From an uncultured Bacteroidota bacterium (GTDB taxonomy: Bacteria > Bacteroidota > Bacteroidia > AKYH767-A > OLB10): 52,641 nucleotides of DNA. The notes under the pieces were generated by a model that searched no databases, was not told the origin of the DNA, and worked only from the letters and a program-made list of their open reading frames with translations. This document shows, piece by piece, positions 25,306-39,736 of this stretch; position 1 is the first letter of the stretch; every line of letters starts with the position of its first letter. The DNA lies in NCBI GenBank assembly GCA_900696575.1, contig CAADHD010000005.1, positions 1 through 52,641 of the forward strand, read 5' to 3'. A program made the position numbers and the translations under genes.

Positions 25306-27123
25306 ATGATGGCAAAGAGAATCATCAGGCTAATTCTTTTGCTGTTCATATTAGCTTCCTGTTCTAAAAAGCAGGATTTGCCTCTTTCAGAAAGAATAGT
25401 CCGTAACTGGAAGTATGTTTCTGTAAATAATACTGACGGGCAGGTTTTCAGAAAGGTTGGCAACGATGATTTTCTGATTCTGGAAAAATCCAATCTTGGC
25501 AACCGGTTTAAGTATGATTTGAAACTCGAAGGAATTCATGCTTCCGGCAATTGGGAACTGAATGACTCTATTCTTCAACTGACTTACGATGCTGAGCCTT
25601 TTACCGCTACTGCCGATTCGTCTGTTATTGAAGTGGACGACAACAATGCGGTTCTGGCAATTTACAAAGACGGAAAAAGAACGGCTGAGTACCGAAACAA
25701 TCAACTGTTGCCCGAAAGAAAGAAGCGTGCATTTCAAATAGCGGAGTGTACGGATAATCGTCTTGTTTTTACAGAACAAGGAATTAATTTCACTTTCAGT
25801 TACACACAACCTGTTATTGAAGGAAGTATTTCATTTCATTCCGTTTTTCGCGGCTTGCTTGGCCTTGCATCCTTGATTTTAATTCTGTTGCTTTTAAGTT
25901 CACACCGCAGCAAAGTAAACTGGAAACTGGTTTTTTCCGGTATAGTTATGCAAATTGTATTTGCATTCCTGATCCTTAAGGTGGAGGTTGTAAAAAATGT
26001 GTTTGAAGCCATGGGTAATTTTTTTGTGTTGATACTTGATTTTACCAAGGCCGGTTCCTCTTTCGTTTTCGGAAATCTTGTAAGTAATCCTCAATCACTC
26101 GGATTTGTTTTTGCTTTTCAGATTCTTCCAACTATTCTGTTCTTCTCAGCACTTACCAGTTTACTATTTTATCTTGGTGTGTTGCAAAAAGTTGTTTATG
26201 CATTTGCATGGCTGATGAGTAAAACCATGCGCATGTCTGGCGCAGAAAGTTTATCGGCTGCCGGAAATATCTTTTTAGGACAAACAGAATCGCCTTTGCT
26301 TATCCGGCCATACTTAGACAGAATGAGTCGTTCCGAAATGCTTTGCATCATGTGCGGAGGCATGGCAACTATTGCCGGTGGTGTAATGGCAGCCTACATC
26401 GGATTCCTTGGAGGCGATGACCCTGTTATGCGTTTGTTTTATGCAAAGCACCTGCTGGCAGCTTCTATCATGTCAGCCCCTGCTGCCATTGTAGCCGCAA
26501 AAATTCTTCTGCCGCAAACCGAAGCAATTGATCGCACCCTGCATGTAAGCAAAGAGAGATTAGGAGGGAACTTCCTTGAAGCATTGGCCAACGGAACAAC
26601 CGATGGATTACGCCTTGCTGTTAATGTTGGTGCTATGCTTATTGTGTTTATTGCCATGATTGCCATGGTTAATTTTATATTGAATGACTGGATTGGTTCA
26701 TGGACAGGATTGAATGCTGCCATTGCTGCTATGACGCATGGAAGGTATGAAGTATTTTCACTTCAGTTTATCTTGGGATATATCGGAGCGCCCTTAGCCT
26801 GGCTTATGGGAACCTGTAAAGAAGATATGGTATTGGTAGGACAGCTGCTTGGCGAAAAAACTATCCTTAATGAATTTGTAGCGTACACTACCTTGGGAAG
26901 TTTAAAAACAGCCGGTGCATTTACCGAGCAGAAATCAGTCATTATAGCCACCTATATTCTTTGCGGCTTCGCCAACTTTGCTTCCATCGGAATACAGATT
27001 GGGGGTATTGGCGCACTGGCTCCTGAACAGAAACCGGTACTTGCCAAACTTGGTTTTAAAGCCTTAATTGGCGGAACGGCTGCTTCACTTTTTACCGCAG
27101 TAATTGTTGGGGCTATTATTTAA
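25306..27123 (+). CDS. CNT-family nucleoside transporter with lipoprotein-like N-terminal domain
   Basis: A 605-residue inner membrane protein. From about residue 180 it is a concentrative nucleoside transporter (NupC type): Nucleos_tra2_N (VNWKLVFSGIVMQIVFAFLIL), gate domain and C-terminal domain (GQTESPLLIRPYLDRMSRSEM, GAPLAWLMGTCKEDM, IQIGGIGALAPEQ). It imports nucleosides, probably with a cation gradient. Residues 1-19 look like a lipoprotein signal with lipobox LASC (Cys19), followed by a beta-rich domain of about 140 residues. It is the last gene of the plus-strand run starting with etfB, and ends 14 nt from convergent ftsY. Confidence 0.88.
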   Translation: MMAKRIIRLILLLFILASCSKKQDLPLSERIVRNWKYVSVNNTDGQVFRKVGNDDFLILEKSNLGNRFKYDLKLEGIHASGNWELNDSILQLTYDAEPFTATADSSVIEVDDNNAVLAIYKDGKRTAEYRNNQLLPERKKRAFQIAECTDNRLVFTEQGINFTFSYTQPVIEGSISFHSVFRGLLGLASLILILLLLSSHRSKVNWKLVFSGIVMQIVFAFLILKVEVVKNVFEAMGNFFVLILDFTKAGSSFVFGNLVSNPQSLGFVFAFQILPTILFFSALTSLLFYLGVLQKVVYAFAWLMSKTMRMSGAESLSAAGNIFLGQTESPLLIRPYLDRMSRSEMLCIMCGGMATIAGGVMAAYIGFLGGDDPVMRLFYAKHLLAASIMSAPAAIVAAKILLPQTEAIDRTLHVSKERLGGNFLEALANGTTDGLRLAVNVGAMLIVFIAMIAMVNFILNDWIGSWTGLNAAIAAMTHGRYEVFSLQFILGYIGAPLAWLMGTCKEDMVLVGQLLGEKTILNEFVAYTTLGSLKTAGAFTEQKSVIIATYILCGFANFASIGIQIGGIGALAPEQKPVLAKLGFKALIGGTAASLFTAVIVGAII

Positions 27124-27137
27124 AAGCTTTTTTGGAA

Positions 27138-28103
27138 TTACAAAAGCACCGAGCTTCCGAACAGCGAATCAACAAATTCCTTTTTATCAAAAAGCTGAAG
27201 GTCTTCTTTCTTTTCACCAACTCCGATATACTTAACCGGAATCTGAAACTGGTCAGATAATCCTATCACCACTCCTCCTTTGGCTGTTCCATCAAGTTTG
27301 GTTAGGGCAAGTGCATTTACTTCGGTAACGGCAGTAAATTGTTTTGCCTGCTCAATAGCATTTTGTCCGGTAGTAGCATCAAGAACCAGCAATACTTCAT
27401 GAGGCGCATCAGGAATTACTTTCTGCATTACTCTTTTAATTTTTGATAATTCATTCATCAGGTTTACCTTATTGTGAAGGCGGCCGGCTGTGTCAATAAT
27501 GATGACATCTGCACCCTGGGCTACACCGGATTTAACAGTATCAAAAGCAACGGAAGCAGGGTCTGCGCCCATTCCTTGCGAAATCAAGGGAACATCAGCT
27601 CTCTGGCTCCACACGGTAAGCTGGTCAACGGCAGCAGCACGAAAAGTATCAGCTGCTCCAAGTAACACTTTTTTACCGGCTTGTTTTAATTGATAGGAAA
27701 GTTTACCGATAGTGGTTGTCTTTCCAACTCCATTTACGCCTACCACCATAATTACATAAGGTTTTACCGAAGTATCAAACGGATTTTGAAGCTTGCCTGT
27801 TGATTCCTGTCCTGCCATCAGGTTCATCACTTCTTCTTTAAGCAGGCTTTGAAGCCCTTCCATACCGAAGTATTTATCTTTTGAAACACGTTTTTGAAGC
27901 CGGTCAATAATTTTAAGTGTAGTACTTACCCCTACATCAGAGCTCAGCAATACTTCTTCGAGGTTATCCAACACCTCATCATCTACAGAAGATTTTCCTG
28001 CAATGGCTTTTGCCAATCGCGAAAAAAAACCGGTGCGTGTCTTTTCAAGTCCTTTATCAAGACTTTCTTTTTTTTCTTTTGAGAACAGTCCGAAAAATGC
28101 CAT
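27138..28103 (-). CDS. ftsY: Signal recognition particle receptor FtsY
   Basis: A 321-residue SRP receptor GTPase that docks ribosome-nascent-chain-SRP complexes at the membrane. N domain helices are at about 15-90. The G domain has the P-loop GVNGVGKTTTIGKLS (about 124-138), DTFRAAAVDQL, DTAGRLHNK, TKLDGTAKGG and GVGEKKEDLQLFD. The acidic A domain is essentially missing, as in many Bacteroidota. It is downstream of rpmG-DUF4295, but a strong terminator-like hairpin lies between, ending 14 nt before the ATG. The SRP RNA gene is also in this window. Confidence 0.95.
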   Translation of the reverse strand: MAFFGLFSKEKKESLDKGLEKTRTGFFSRLAKAIAGKSSVDDEVLDNLEEVLLSSDVGVSTTLKIIDRLQKRVSKDKYFGMEGLQSLLKEEVMNLMAGQESTGKLQNPFDTSVKPYVIMVVGVNGVGKTTTIGKLSYQLKQAGKKVLLGAADTFRAAAVDQLTVWSQRADVPLISQGMGADPASVAFDTVKSGVAQGADVIIIDTAGRLHNKVNLMNELSKIKRVMQKVIPDAPHEVLLVLDATTGQNAIEQAKQFTAVTEVNALALTKLDGTAKGGVVIGLSDQFQIPVKYIGVGEKKEDLQLFDKKEFVDSLFGSSVLL

Positions 28104-28116
28104 AGTTCATATCGTT

Positions 28117-28155
28117 AAAAACAAAAGAGCCTCCTTCCGTAAGGGAAAGAAGCTC
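28117..28155 (-). terminator. Strong intrinsic terminator/attenuator between DUF4295 and ftsY
   Basis: On the minus strand the arms GAGCTTCTTTCC and GGAAGGAGGCTC pair over 12 positions (two G-T wobbles), with loop CTTAC, followed at once by TTTTGTTTTT. It begins about 20 nt after the DUF4295 stop and ends 14 nt before the ftsY ATG. The layout suggests partial termination ahead of ftsY. Confidence 0.75.
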
Positions 28156-28175
28156 AATTGGTATGGAAAACGCAA

Positions 28176-28331
28176 TTATTTCTGGTTGAGATAATCTTTG
28201 ATATGATCGTTATGAACCACTTCTTCCTTGAAAGAGTAGGAACCTGTAGCTTCATTTTTAACCATTTTAATGACCTTGGAAAACTCTTTACCTTTTCCTG
28301 TTTTTAAAGTTGCAACTACCTTTTTTGCCAT
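28176..28331 (-). CDS. DUF4295 small basic protein
   Basis: A 51-residue lysine-rich protein, beginning MAKKVVATLKTGKGK and ending DHIKDYLNQK. It matches in length and sequence the DUF4295 family, which in Bacteroidota sits right after the L33 gene. It lies 20 nt downstream of rpmG and before ftsY. A ribosome-related role is suspected from size, charge and position only. Confidence 0.85.
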   Translation of the reverse strand: MAKKVVATLKTGKGKEFSKVIKMVKNEATGSYSFKEEVVHNDHIKDYLNQK

Positions 28332-28351
28332 GATTCAGCGTGTTTAAATGG

Positions 28352-28534
28352 TTATTTAATTTCTTTATGAACCGTCATTTTCTTCAGGATAGGATTGTAC
28401 TTTTTTAATTCCAGCCTGTCGGTTGTATTCTTTTTGTTTTTGGTGGTGATGTACCTTGATGTACCCGGCATGCCACTGGCTTTATGCTCAGTACATTCAA
28501 GGATTACCTGCACCCTGTTACCTTTCTTAGCCAT
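28352..28534 (-). CDS. rpmG: 50S ribosomal protein L33
   Basis: A 60-residue ribosomal protein of the large subunit. It starts at [17 protein letters not shown] and has the L33 pattern [24 protein letters not shown] single Cys (Cys14) is left, so it is the zinc-free type. A longer in-frame ATG at 28585 lies on top of the promoter and is rejected. Its own promoter at 28564-28593 separates it transcriptionally from the upstream peptidase gene. Confidence 0.96.
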
Positions 28535-28563
28535 GATTTTTAGAAATTTTTGAAAACGGAGCG

Positions 28564-28593
28564 CAAATATAGTTTTAAGGCTCAAAAAAGCAA
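28564..28593 (-). promoter_or_regulatory. Promoter of rpmG: TTG-N19-TATATTTG
   Basis: On the minus strand TTG (28593-28591) and TATATTTG (28571-28564) are separated by exactly 19 nt, the Bacteroidota -33/-7 arrangement. It lies 30 nt before the rpmG ATG and just after the peptidase stop at 28607. Confidence 0.7.
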
Positions 28594-28606
28594 CCTGCCG
28601 GCCTGC

Positions 28607-30106
28607 TTAATTTTTATGAAGCTCATTAAAAAGACTTTCCTGAGCCATTAAAGCTTCAATTTCTTCTGTAGTCTTGGGTATGCAGGCAGAGAGGTTTATC
28701 GGATCACTTTCAGTAATCAGTATATCATCTTCAATTCTGATTCCTATGTCCCACCATTTAGGGTCGCATGGTGAGCCTTTCTTAATGTAGATTCCCGGCT
28801 CAACGGTAATGACGCTGTTAGGCTGAAGCGGGCCGTAAGTACCCGGGTCATGAACATCAAGTCCGAGGTAATGCGAAGTGCCGTGCATGAAGTACTTGCG
28901 TACTTGGTCTTCTTTTTTGATGATTCCCAGTTTAATCAAACCATCAGCAATTATTTTAGTAGCAACCTTATGCGGTTCATTGAATGGAGTGCCTGGTTTA
29001 CAAACAGAAATTCCGGCCTCCTGAGCTTTAAGTACTAAATCATAAAGCAGTTTCTGTTCCTTCGAAAACTTACCATTTATGGGGAAGGAGCGTGTTACAT
29101 CAGCCGTGTAGCCATGGTATTCAGCACCCATGTCCATAACCACAAAATCGCCATCAACAAGTTTTTTTCTGTTCTTTTCGTAATGTAATACGCAGGCGTT
29201 ATGGCCTCCTCCAACTATGGATGGATAACCGGCATATTCAGCACCTCCATAATACCAGAAATACTCATTGATGGTTTGAAGCTGTTGCTCGGTCATGCCC
29301 GGTTTTGCTGCTTTAATAACTTCAATAAAGCCTCTGCAAGTCAAGTCAATAGCCTTTTTCATTAAGTCAATTTCTTCTGAAGTTTTTACCTCTCGAAGCA
29401 AGGAATTTATTTTAAGCATACCGGCCCTGTCAACCTTTTCAGAGATGCCGGAAGTTTGTTCTTTAAACTTTGCAGCCATCCAGCCTGTACTGCCTTTCTC
29501 AATAGTATTGTAATTAAGATTGACTGCTGTTTTAAGGTAAATTTTTTCAAACTGGTTCCAGTTAATTCCGGCACTATCGAAGCCGGTGTTGATGGCCACA
29601 GATCTAATTCCTGAGGAATTACGAACATCTTCAGCCGAAGGGACTTTACCTGTCCATGTTTCCATCATTTCATCGTTTTCCTGTATAAAAATAAACTCAT
29701 TGGCTGTTTGGCCATTGATGGTTACAGGTTCTTTTAAAATAAGGAGTAAGGCATCGGGATGACGGTAGCCTGTGTAGTAGTAAAAATCAGGATTCTGATG
29801 GTATTTATAATCTACATCATTGGAGCGGTTTCGAACGGGTGCGGCAATGAATACGGCTGCAGCATGATCAGCCATTTTCTCCCTGAAAAGCTTTCTTCTT
29901 TCTGTATGAAAGGATGCCGGTAGCAGGTCGGTATCGTACAGGTTTTCAGAATTGTCAATTTGCTTTTTCTGAATATTTTCCTGAGAATAAAGAAAACCGG
30001 GGAGCAGGATGAGCAAAAAAAAGATCCCGGCAAGAAATAACTTTCGTGCCGGGAGGATATGAGTGTATTGATTCTTCAAATCAGATGTTACCTTTTTTGA
30101 TGGCAT
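28607..30106 (-). CDS. Aminopeptidase P family (M24) protein, exported
   Basis: A metallopeptidase of about 499 residues that removes N-terminal residues preceding proline. Metal ligands of the M24 fold are visible: VVMDMGAEYHGYTADVTRSFP (two Asp), HGTSHYLGLDVHD (His), VTVEPGIYI (Glu) and GIRIEDDILIT (Glu). An N-terminal hydrophobic segment (KLFLAGIFFLLILLPGFLYSQ) predicts export to the periplasm. The ATG at 30106 overlaps the rpmB end by 26 nt; a TTG at 30079, just after the rpmB stop, would give a tighter signal peptide. A longer frame to 30274 runs inside rpmB and is rejected. It lies between rpmB and rpmG. Confidence 0.88.
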   Translation of the reverse strand: MPSKKVTSDLKNQYTHILPARKLFLAGIFFLLILLPGFLYSQENIQKKQIDNSENLYDTDLLPASFHTERRKLFREKMADHAAAVFIAAPVRNRSNDVDYKYHQNPDFYYYTGYRHPDALLLILKEPVTINGQTANEFIFIQENDEMMETWTGKVPSAEDVRNSSGIRSVAINTGFDSAGINWNQFEKIYLKTAVNLNYNTIEKGSTGWMAAKFKEQTSGISEKVDRAGMLKINSLLREVKTSEEIDLMKKAIDLTCRGFIEVIKAAKPGMTEQQLQTINEYFWYYGGAEYAGYPSIVGGGHNACVLHYEKNRKKLVDGDFVVMDMGAEYHGYTADVTRSFPINGKFSKEQKLLYDLVLKAQEAGISVCKPGTPFNEPHKVATKIIADGLIKLGIIKKEDQVRKYFMHGTSHYLGLDVHDPGTYGPLQPNSVITVEPGIYIKKGSPCDPKWWDIGIRIEDDILITESDPINLSACIPKTTEEIEALMAQESLFNELHKN

Positions 30107-30314
30107 CAATAATGGTTTTGGTGATGCCTTTTTTATTGATGGTACGAATGGCTGAGGTTGAAACTTTAAGGGTAACCCATTCACCTGTTTCGGGCAGGTA
30201 GAATTTCTTTTTCTGAAGATTCGGATGGAATCTGCGCTTTGTCTTCTTGTTGGAAAAGGAAACATTGTGGCCAACCATTGATTTCTTTCCGGTGATATCG
30301 CAAATGCGTGACAT
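30081..30314 (-). CDS. rpmB: 50S ribosomal protein L28
   Basis: A 77-residue large-subunit ribosomal protein with the L28 start MSRICDITGKKSMVGHNVSFSNKKTKRRFHPNL and TLKVSTSAIRTINKKG near the C-terminus. In most Bacteroidota it is followed directly by rpmG; here the aminopeptidase P gene is between them and overlaps its 3' end. A -33/-7 promoter lies 35-65 nt upstream. Confidence 0.96.
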   Translation of the reverse strand: MSRICDITGKKSMVGHNVSFSNKKTKRRFHPNLQKKKFYLPETGEWVTLKVSTSAIRTINKKGITKTIIDAIKKGNI

Positions 30315-30348
30315 GTGAGTAAGTTTTAAATTGTGGTAAAAAGGGGCG

Positions 30349-30378
30349 CAAATATGAAATTTTCATTTCTTAAAGCAA
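30349..30378 (-). promoter_or_regulatory. Promoter of rpmB: TTTG-N19-CATATTTG
   Basis: On the minus strand TTG (30378-30376, part of TTTTG) and CATATTTG (30356-30349) are 19 nt apart; the -7 octamer has one mismatch to TAnnTTTG. It lies 35 nt before the rpmB ATG. Confidence 0.65.
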
Positions 30379-30441
30379 AATAATCAGAGAAAATGTAACC
30401 CCAACTAGCTTTTAACAGTATTTAACCGGCAAACCATTGAC

Positions 30442-30747
30442 ATGAAACGCAAACATTTCCGTACTTTTCAAAGACAAAGTCAGCGCGTACGGTTTCGATT
30501 AAATCGTACTGCTGTTGCTTTAAGTTTAATTATCGTTTTTGGCGGTGGCACATTGTTTTTTTACCTCAATACAGGCAATGTGCAAACCTCTAAAGCAGCC
30601 GAGGCAGATGTTGTAATTGTTTCAGATCCGCAAGCCGAAACCGGTCTTGAGGTTTCCGGTTTACAACGCATTTCTGCCTCTGATCGGTATGCTAGCCGGT
30701 CTTCTCAGAATAATGATAACTCTGTATTTGTTCGAAGCCTAAAATAA
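30442..30747 (+). CDS. Small single-pass membrane protein, unknown
   Basis: A 101-residue protein that I do not recognise. A strongly basic N-terminus (MKRKHFRTFQRQSQRVRFRLNR) is followed by one membrane helix (about residues 25-44) and a Ser/Asp-rich tail. This predicts an inner-membrane protein with the tail outside, or an uncleaved signal. It lies 29 nt upstream of the giant T9SS surface protein on the same strand, and so may be co-expressed with it. Confidence 0.55.
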   Translation: MKRKHFRTFQRQSQRVRFRLNRTAVALSLIIVFGGGTLFFYLNTGNVQTSKAAEADVVIVSDPQAETGLEVSGLQRISASDRYASRSSQNNDNSVFVRSLK

Positions 30748-30776
30748 ATCTATGCGAACACTTTTCAAATTTTACC

Positions 30777-33700
30777 ATGATAAAACCTTTAAAAGTAGTA
30801 AACTTTGCTGCTTATGTTATTGTATCATTTTCGATTAACACCCATGCAGCTACTAAAACTTCAATAACATCAGGCAACTGGGGTACCGCTTCAGTATGGT
30901 CGCCTTCCGGGGTTCCTGTTGCCGGTGATAATGTAATTATTGCTTCGGGGCATAGTATTAATTTAAACAACAACTATTCAATAACCAATGTTACGGTAAA
31001 TACCGGAGGTAAGCTCCAATTTACTTCAGGCCGTACTTTAACCATGTCTGGACATCTGACGGTTAACGGAACGGTAACCATGTCAAATGGAAATATCTCT
31101 TTTGCTTCAGGTAAAAATTTTGTGATTGGCAGTTCAGGTAAATTTACCTGGGAGCCGGGCACCAATACTGCCGCATGGGCAACGTTATTTACCAATGGTG
31201 TGGAGAGTTTTGATGCAACATCAACTTTAATAATTAAGAAGTGGTATAGTTTCACAGTGCCGATAGGCTCAGTGGTAAGCAGTAACTTCGGAAATCTTGA
31301 GCTGAACTCTTTTAATTCGCCATTTATCTACGAATGGAATCAGAATAACTGGTTTCAAACCAGGCAAATTCTGGGTGAACTTACCATTGACCAGGGCTGG
31401 ATTGTGCTCGATAAATCGTCTTCCATTACGGCAACCACCATCGGAAAAATCAGATTGAAAAGTGCCAATTCGTATCTCGATTTTCACGGAGGATCACATA
31501 CTTCCTCCTTTCAGGTTACCACTACCTCAATAAACATTGCAGGCGGTATGATGAACGGTATTTATAATGGCAATGGCAATGTAACGCTTTATGTAACCAG
31601 CGATTTTAATAACAGCGCTACTTTTTATGGTATTTACAATTCGGGTGCTGCAGGAGTGGGTAATGGAAATTTTACGATGACTGTAAACGGAAACTTTAAT
31701 CAAACAGCCGGAGATTTCAGGGGAAATTATAATCTCACTACTTACATGGCCGGAACCACTTATATCCGAATCGGCAGTTTGAATTTCTCGGGTGGAATCT
31801 GGATGGGACAGTATGGATGCCATCCCGGAGGACAAACCTGTACAATCATTATTGACGGTGACCTGAATATCAATTTTAGTTCTTCTTCAAATATTTTCAG
31901 GGGCGTAGGTCTTTCATTACTGGGGTCAACCTACAACACCCCCGCCTTTGCTTTTAGTGTGGGGGGCAAGCTTACCATTTCGGGAAATGCGTCTGCACAA
32001 TGGATTTCCAATGCTGCCACCGGAACCGAAACCACTACCATTGCAGGGACTACGTCCATTTCGGGTGGTACAAACAATTTTAATTATGGTTCCAATGGTA
32101 TTGACCATCAGACTAACATTACCTTTTCAGGCAATGTAACCGTTAGTGGAGGTACTACGAATCTGTCTGCATTCGGAAATTCTTCTTTTGCCGATTTACA
32201 GCAAAATCTGAATGTGAGTAATGGTACTCTTATTCTTAAAGGGGGTAATGGTCTTATGTCAACCACCATTGCAGGCAATTATGTTCAAAGCGGTGGTAGT
32301 CTGATTCTTTACAGCAATGCTGTTACACATAACACTCAGTCGGTAGTCATGCAGGTTAACAGCAATTTTGAACAAAGCGGTGGTACTATTAACTTTAATA
32401 CAAACACCAATGCCGCCTCGGCTACACACATGATCAACCTTAATGGAAGTAATTACACGATTTCAGGTAACGGGCAAATGACGCATGCAGGTGCCGGCAC
32501 AGGATCCGTTTTCGGAATGCTTAACTTTAACCGAAACGGTACTATCAGTTTTTCGCGTTCCGGATCACATAATATACAGCAGGTGAAACAGAATGTAAAA
32601 AACGGATGCACCTTGCTGGTGAACTCCGGCAACATTCAGATAGCTTCTCATTCTTCCTCAGCACATCAGAATCTTTTCAGAATTGAAAATGGCGGCATGG
32701 TGAATCTTTACCTGAACCAGATGTACAGCAATGCTCTGCAAGCAAATTCTTCAGTTTATAATGAAAACAATGGTACACTCATTCTTGCGCGAACTCAGGG
32801 TTTGTATGATGCAACGGCCAATGGTGCTATTGCTTCAACCGGCAACATGACTTTTTACCTTGAACCAAATTCTGTTGTTGAATACAACGGATCCGATAAT
32901 CAGGTTATTACAGGAACAGGAATCGGAACGGCAACAACCAATAATCAGAAATATGGAATGCTGCGTGTAAATTTTAACGGAACCCCCGATGCTGAGTATG
33001 TTTATCCGGTAGCCAACAATGTCTTTGTCAGAACACAACTTAACCTTGAGCAAGGTGAGTTTTATTTAAACAATTATAAGCTCACCATAGAGTCAGGCTT
33101 GCCAACAGCCGTTGTTCGTACCCTAGGATATATTAAAAGCGAAACCATGGCGGCAGTGAATAATGGCATTGTAAGATGGGAAAATATGGGTACAGATATT
33201 TATACATTTCCCTTCAGTTTTAATTCTTCCACTTATCTGCCTGTAATTTTTTCTTCTGCTTCTTATGGATGGATGGAGGTTTCTACGCGCAGAACCACCA
33301 TGACCAACAATACCCCCTGGACAGGATTAAGCCATGTTGCTCCGGTAACCAACATGTATCAGGATTATGTAGATGTTTCCGTTCCAAATGTAATTGACCG
33401 TTGGTGGGTAATCTATGCTCCGGGCATGACAGGCTCATTAAAATTAACTTATGACGGTGATGAGAATACTACCGATGCTTCTCTAAGAACTGGTTTGTTT
33501 TCTATTCAGGCATGGAACGGAGTACAATGGTTGCCTCCGCAGGGAAGCGGTACAGGCGTAACTTCAGGAACCGGAACGGTATCTGCTTCTTCGTTCAGCG
33601 ATTTTCTGCCTATGGTACTGGTGTCAACTCCAAGTCCTTTGCCTGTGCAACTGATAAGTTTTAATGCAAAAAAACTGAATTATGTAGTAGATACCGAATG

Positions 33701-39518: not shown

Positions 39519-39627
39519 GAGGGATTGTTCTGGTTTTCGGGGAGCAAAGGTGGCAAACGGTAGTGCAATTTAAAAATGCCGATACTTCTTTGACTGCCTT
39601 TTCGGTCTCCTGTATAGCAACAAAAAA

Positions 39628-39724
39628 CGGGTAAGCCCCTTGCATCGCACCGCTACAACCATTTATCCTTGCTGCCTTCCGGCCCTGGGGAGGTTCACGG
39701 GAGCTGGTCGTACAAGACTTACCC
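39628..39724 (-). ncRNA. ffs: Signal recognition particle RNA, small bacterial type
   Basis: On the minus strand the RNA contains CCAGGGCCGGAAGGCAGCAAGG-like core bases, the conserved SRP domain IV (GGCCGGAAGGCAGC, GNAR-type tetraloop GGAA). Its ends, GGGTAAG (from 39724) and CTTACCC (to 39629), pair as the closing stem. The 3' end runs into TTTTTT at 39627-39621. The length of about 97 nt fits 4.5S RNA. It is the partner of FtsY, encoded 11 kb away. Ends are from base pairing only. Confidence 0.9.
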
Positions 39725-39728
39725 GGGG

Positions 39729-39736
39729 CGAAAATA
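39729..39736 (-). promoter_or_regulatory. Candidate -7 element TATTTTCG of the SRP RNA gene
   Basis: On the minus strand TATTTTCG lies just before the inferred 5' GGG of the RNA at 39724, the correct distance for a -7 element. TTG is found 22 nt upstream of it. Confidence 0.5.

Follow-up and report, generated by a model that had tools for sequence, protein, structure and literature searches.

The window analyzed here is a stretch of 52,641 nt from an uncultured Bacteroidota bacterium (contig CAADHD010000005.1, positions 1 to 52,641), and the locus of interest lies on its minus strand. In the direction of transcription, the genes are rpmG (28352..28534; Pfam PF00471), encoding the 60-aa ribosomal protein bL33; a DUF4295 gene of 51 aa (28176..28331; Pfam PF14128); and ftsY (27138..28103; Pfam SRP54 and SRP54_N), which encodes the 321-aa SRP receptor GTPase. 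The DUF4295 product matches both the chain named '50S ribosomal protein L38' of PDB entry 7jil and a chain of 9i5t labelled 'DUF4295 domain-containing protein', and the match to the L38 chain identifies DUF4295 as bL38, a Bacteroidota ribosomal protein.

The space between bL38 and ftsY is occupied by a terminator hairpin (28127..28155, minus strand) with a 12-bp stem and a 5-nt loop, which reads GAGCTTCTTTCC-CTTAC-GGAAGGAGGCTC on the minus strand from 28155 to 28127, two of the 12 pairs being G-U. In the window, the hairpin lies 20 nt past the bL38 stop codon and is followed directly by a U tract, TTTTGTTTTT (28117..28126, minus strand), after which a 13-nt spacer without a promoter-like box (28104..28116, minus strand) leads to the ftsY ATG at 28103; the start codon is thereby 13 nt from the end of the U tract and 23 nt from the end of the stem. 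As is typical of intrinsic terminators, a stable, G+C-containing hairpin and an immediately adjoining U tract occur together on the transcribed strand. The corresponding 49 nt of the minus strand fold at -21.6 kcal/mol (z = -6.10), a value equaled by none of 200 dinucleotide shuffles. A terminator scan of positions 26000-31500 returned nine candidates against 6.4 +/- 2.4 expected, a count that is not clearly above chance on its own, and the bL38-ftsY hairpin possessed the longest stem of the nine. The plus strand of the window carries no T run past the stem, and the signal is thus directed at ftsY only. An Rfam search of 27500-28800 yielded nothing up to E = 1, leaving the hairpin without a match to a known RNA family or riboswitch.

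Further upstream on the minus strand, an aminopeptidase P-like gene (Peptidase_M24, AMP_N; 28607-30274, start approximate) lies between rpmB (30314-30081) and rpmG. Within the order to which the source organism belongs, rpmB was seen 16-45 nt upstream of rpmG in 5 of 37 genomes and was absent from the flank of up to 1.5 kb in the rest. A promoter-like TTTG-N19-CATATTTG, read by eye and one base off the consensus, precedes rpmB in the window at about 30340-30375 (minus strand).

Conservation of the hairpin and the gene order

A bL38 search of 41 genomes (the source genome and 40 relatives) located the gene in 37, namely the source genome and 36 relatives; the four without a match (G006, G021, G024, and G034) were left out, and locus L001 was dropped from the counts as a duplicate of L002. 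Every one of these 37 genomes has the gene order bL33-bL38-hairpin-ftsY, and in each the hairpin is accompanied by its U tract. The terminator score was positive in 36 of the 37, the exception (L033) having a bulged stem that falls outside the scorer's model; in one further locus (L013), the arm sequence is clearly divergent. The spacer between bL38 and ftsY measures 66-174 nt across the 37 loci, with a short stem-to-ATG distance (median 35 nt). In the order, the arms take the form AGCTTCTTTC-loop-GAARGRAGCT, and the loop varies in the alignment both in sequence and in length, from 3 to 7 nt. Eleven consensus pairs make up the aligned hairpin, in five of which both partners have changed in one or more sequences.

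This conservation settles that the hairpin before ftsY is real. An earlier, sequence-only reading of the window had placed a strong terminator with a 12-bp stem and a U tract between DUF4295 and ftsY, and both the fold (z -6.1) and the presence of the hairpin in 37 of 37 genomes bear it out; a lack of conservation among relatives, which that reading had said would speak against it, was not what was found. Its placement of the terminator just before ftsY likewise holds, with the distance corrected from 14 nt to 13 nt, counted from the U tract.

In a wider sample of 148 genomes of the phylum, bL38 was found in 36 genomes belonging to other orders within the class, and ftsY was the next gene in 35 of these. 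The terminator score was positive in 33 of the 35 spacers, and the remaining two (L105 and L107) fold into a bulged hairpin ahead of a T run. Named records contributed 80 loci, with bL38 beside ftsY in 62 and a positive terminator score in 56; in Pedobacter (L249), for example, the stem-to-ATG distance is 26 nt. Outside the class, the phylum gave 43 bL38 matches, of which 13 were fetched; among these 13, ftsY adjoined bL38 in none and bL33 was also missing in three.

The window also contains an SRP RNA gene (RF04183, 97.3 bits; 39625-39731, minus strand), which shares its strand with ftsY and lies 11.5 kb upstream of it. SRP RNA matches were present in 19 of 20 other relatives, on a contig different from that of bL38-ftsY wherever both were known. 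A clustering of SRP genes was rejected on these grounds, with some room for linkage given that the contigs are short, and the closeness of the two genes in the window is probably incidental.

Promoters and the supply of ftsY mRNA

The housekeeping promoter of Bacteroidota has been described as TAnnTTTG at -7 with TTTG near -33 (PMC7366714). Promoters were scored here with this housekeeping consensus only, as TTG-N18-21-TAnnTTTG with a cut-off of p <= 0.05. In the window, the bL33-bL38 unit is preceded by a perfect consensus match, TTG-N19-TATATTTG (28564..28593, minus strand), the likely source of readthrough into ftsY, and a consensus promoter occurs upstream of bL33 in 27 of the 37 order genomes. 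In contrast, not one of the 37 possesses a housekeeping-consensus match above chance in the 95 nt before ftsY, hairpin included, and exact TAnnTTTG is absent from the 175 nt up to the bL38 stop in all 37. Within 60 nt past the stem, where such a box marks Flavobacteriaceae-type loci, the exact sequence was likewise missing from all 37 order loci (1.2 expected). Near-boxes are seen in single loci of the order, as in L028 (TATTTTTG, 8/9, p 0.07). As a separate observation, GC and a run rich in C, e.g., TATCTTTGCAACCC, come after the -7 box of bL33 in nearly all cases (L002-L038) and may represent an extended start-site motif.

Elsewhere in the class, the picture is more varied. Exact TAnnTTTG was found within 60 nt past the stem in 12 of 16 loci of families f8 and f9 (1.4 expected), demonstrating that the box test is able to detect a promoter where one is present, and in 1 of 19 loci of the other class families (0.7 expected). 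Among the named records, 21 of the 56 terminator loci carry the box, comprising 3 of 18 with a stem-to-ATG distance of 45 nt or less and 18 of 38 with a longer one; boxes were also seen in Barnesiella, Mediterranea, Lentimicrobium, and Runella, as well as in named Flavobacterium and Chryseobacterium loci. Judged by shared sequence, the f9 hairpin type would correspond to Flavobacterium and related genera, and the f8 hairpin type to Chryseobacterium. A -7 box comes after the terminator in Flavobacteriaceae, Weeksellaceae, and part of the Bacteroidales and Cytophagales, and it probably gives ftsY a promoter of its own there.

For the order, the reading that we favor, with a probability of roughly 0.6, is that the intrinsic terminator of bL33-bL38 is partial and intra-operonic, and that readthrough gives most of the ftsY mRNA. 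Specifically, RNA polymerase would initiate at the consensus promoter before bL33, the majority of bL33-bL38 transcripts would stop in the U tract, and the fraction reading through would supply ftsY mRNA, holding SRP receptor output low and fixed relative to the ribosomal proteins; we infer the occurrence of this readthrough, its amount, and its role as the main source. Loci with a long spacer often provide ftsY with its own promoter; in the order, the short spacer and the lack of a consensus promoter point to readthrough as the main source of ftsY mRNA, barring a promoter of a different type.

Part of this had been proposed from the window alone. The earlier claim that no room is left for a separate promoter after the terminator agrees with the 13-nt spacer and its lack of a promoter-like box. 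The accompanying proposal, that ftsY would depend on readthrough and that the hairpin could set the FtsY-to-ribosomal-protein ratio, appears to be the best-supported reading (0/37 consensus promoters), and its further suggestion of regulation finds no backing in the Rfam search (no match) or in an antiterminator pairing (17/37, below). The other option that had been raised, a promoter overlapping the hairpin, is unsupported in the order as far as the housekeeping consensus goes (0/37) but comes close to describing Flavobacteriaceae/Weeksellaceae-type loci, in which the -7 box lies past the U tract.

A different explanation, which we consider unlikely, is that the terminator is a full one and that ftsY has its own promoter overlapping the hairpin or the spacer; such a promoter would be of a non-housekeeping kind (degenerate or ECF-type) and would uncouple ftsY from the ribosomal proteins. 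The total absence of consensus matches above chance and of exact boxes in the 37 order genomes argues against it, as do the 13 nt between U tract and ATG in the window, but the explanation gains some weight from the TAnnTTTG boxes that follow the terminator in 12/16 f8/f9 loci and in 21/56 named loci, and from near-boxes in single order loci such as that of L028. Furthermore, 5' UTRs are short in Bacteroides thetaiotaomicron, with a reported median of 32 nt (PMC7366714), and short 5' UTRs in Bacteroidota would leave geometric room for a cryptic promoter within the hairpin region in many of these 37 genomes.

Constraint on the 5' arm and terminator strength

As controls, we used the terminators that follow rplT, rpsT, rplI, and groEL in these relatives. 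Each control gene was matched in 36 to 40 genomes, from which 30 loci were taken (for groEL, 29 could be used). The comparison of arm identity left out loci with a score of zero or less (3/30 for rplT, 4/30 for rpsT, 10/30 for rplI, and 1/29 for groEL), as well as one groEL locus without a hairpin. In shared genomes, the 5' arm of the ftsY hairpin reaches an identity of 0.77-0.78, relative to 0.443 for rplT, 0.579 for rpsT, 0.483 for rplI, and 0.463 for groEL; the 3' arm reaches 0.65-0.66, with controls at 0.453-0.555. An arm-pair pattern gave six matches in 21 genomes, all six at the bL38-ftsY locus, with the window copy missing the strict pattern. Similarly, a covariance model, trained on these very sequences, ranked the bL38-ftsY locus top in 37/37 genomes and scored no more than 37.8 bits elsewhere. 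A repeated genomic terminator element was rejected on the pattern (6/6 here) and on the covariance search, whose training set consisted of the same loci, and the confinement of the best matches to bL38-ftsY makes the constraint specific to this locus.

The two arms have also changed unequally: on a quick FtsY tree in which 15 of 34 inner branches are weak, parsimony assigned 8 changes to 5'-arm columns 7-15 and 37 to their partner columns. Since U-G wobbles with U on the 5' side are common to all five terminator sets (51:2, 18:0, 15:3, 11:3, and 13:10), this asymmetry is partly generic, and it was set aside as strong evidence given both the general terminator habit and the weak tree. A DNA operator formed by palindromic arms was rejected as well; the loop varies from 3 to 7 nt and the changes in the 3' arm keep RNA wobble pairs instead of a DNA palindrome, making a constraint at the RNA level the likelier one. 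Likewise rejected was mimicry of a Shine-Dalgarno sequence by the 3' arm (GAAAGGAG in some genomes, GGAAGGAGG in the window), an arm that is not conserved as such; the reported absence of Shine-Dalgarno use by Bacteroidia ribosomes (PMC9976891) also counts against it. Terminators of this kind are already known, but this one stands out by the unusual conservation of its sequence, with an unexplained constraint on its 5' arm.

It is tempting to invoke regulated attenuation, in which readthrough would be switched with the state of secretion or of the ribosome, either by a factor acting in trans (ribosomal protein, RNA-binding protein, or small RNA) or by an antiterminator formed with the bL38 message, but we regard this as doubtful. 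A 5'-arm identity beyond what structure accounts for (0.77-0.78 against 0.44-0.58 in controls) and the 8-versus-37 count of changes would fit such a scheme, and in 17 of 37 genomes the best-pairing site for the 5' arm does lie at positions -50 to -54 relative to the bL38 stop codon, e.g., GGAAGAAGT. This pairing is absent in the other 20, including all of genera g5 and g6, in which the best partner is elsewhere or weak, so that the antiterminator falls short of a conserved pairing and was rejected; moreover, the pairing site encodes K-E-E-V of bL38, and protein constraint alone can account for it. A trans factor fares little better, given that the loop varies in length and sequence, unlike a protein target, that U-over-G wobbles with the U in the 5' arm are habitual in terminators here, and that no Rfam family was matched (27500-28800, E up to 1). 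Pairing with SRP RNA was rejected as being at chance level, its longest run of 9 being reached by 49 of 200 shuffles. Equally hard to credit at present is the more specific proposal that the hairpin is a dedicated cis-regulatory RNA, whose near-invariant pyrimidine 5' arm, AGCUUCUUUC, would be recognized in sequence by a trans factor that adjusts readthrough, be it a ribosomal protein, an RRM-type RNA-binding protein, or a small RNA. If true, SRP receptor synthesis would track ribosome or export demand, providing a direct transcriptional link from ribosome supply to membrane-protein targeting.

How strong the terminator is bears on the favored reading, partial termination with readthrough. Wobble pairs account for 14.2% in the ftsY hairpin versus 5.4-9.4% in the four controls, and the median terminator score, which was built for E. 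coli and not for Bacteroidota, is 21.2 for ftsY relative to 35.6 for rplT, 30.7 for rpsT, 36.3 for groEL, and 12.0 for rplI. Paired by genome, the difference between ftsY and rpsT is not significant (p 0.12), and with rplI scoring below ftsY, the support for a signal short of full terminator strength is only moderate. Strength also tracks promoter presence uncleanly, as class families without a downstream box (median 17.2) are not stronger than the order (21.2), and f8/f9 loci with boxes have a median of 27.6. A leaky ftsY terminator is nonetheless plausible on these scores. That the hairpin is an ordinary, full end-of-unit terminator, placed before ftsY only as a remnant of gene order, and that ftsY draws its transcripts from a distant or antisense-independent source that escaped notice, is very improbable, as ftsY is an essential gene that some transcription must reach and the gene order is kept in 37/37 order genomes and 35/36 other class loci, even though anatomy alone cannot tell full from partial termination and the 20-nt spacing from the stop codon resembles that of control terminators.

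Related systems and significance

In the rpsU-dnaG-rpoD operon of E. coli, a terminator after a ribosomal-protein gene lowers expression of the next gene; bL38-ftsY shares this layout of a terminator past a ribosomal-protein gene and differs in genes and phylum. A further parallel is the rplL-rpoB spacer of the E. coli rplKAJL-rpoBC cluster, where a terminator/attenuator is reported to decouple ribosomal-protein genes from a downstream gene of lower need (PMC4670729). In both cases, the terminator follows ribosomal-protein genes and precedes a gene needed in smaller amounts; here, too, the hairpin sits between co-directional genes with bL33 and bL38 upstream, and the downstream gene is without a strong promoter of its own by the housekeeping consensus (0/37 for ftsY vs 27/37 for bL33). 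The differences are that other genes and another phylum are involved, that the present case is known from sequence only, and that its hairpin sequence is conserved across genera. In the archaeon Methanococcus maripaludis, internal termination within ribosomal protein-RNA polymerase operons is likewise reported to lower the downstream gene, with removal being harmful to growth (PMC10450193). The likeness again is internal termination after ribosomal-protein genes, and the difference lies in archaeal termination and in the genes concerned. Finally, partial termination has been reported for 67 '3'-PT' regions in Flavobacterium psychrophilum (PMC9723704).

If the favored reading of partial termination is correct, it would show that the balance between SRP receptor and ribosome is set in one lineage of Bacteroidia through readthrough of a conserved terminator and in others through a promoter placed right after it, and these two natural layouts allow the costs and benefits of coupling to be tested. 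In addition, an unexplained constraint in a plain-looking terminator offers a lead to a regulatory factor, in a phylum with few known RNA regulators.

A search of the literature on bL38/DUF4295, on rpmG and ftsY, and on ftsY terminators or transcription start sites, with supplements outside its scope, found no description of the bL38-ftsY terminator, and the portions of PMC5395568 and PMC10994844 available contained no information on ftsY. The only related statement found concerns F. psychrophilum, in which a structured 5' element upstream of ftsY is described as conserved in Flavobacteriaceae, without an Rfam match, and probably cis-regulatory (PMC9723704); ftsY leaders of the phylum have thus been noticed before. 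That element shares gene and phylum with the hairpin studied here and differs in belonging to the transcribed 5' region of ftsY. In the Flavobacterium loci L216, L218, L224, L231, and L245, the terminator is followed by a -7 box (not exact in L224) and then by a stem-to-ATG distance of 67-272 nt. Judging from this arrangement and from the published description as far as it was available, the F. psychrophilum element is probably a leader downstream of terminator and -7 box, distinct from the hairpin of the order. In two f9 loci with a long bL38-ftsY spacer, this spacer also contains a match to Flavo-1 RNA (RF01705; L114:1302-1379 and L119:1318-1388, both on the plus strand), which by its coordinates is antisense to ftsY.
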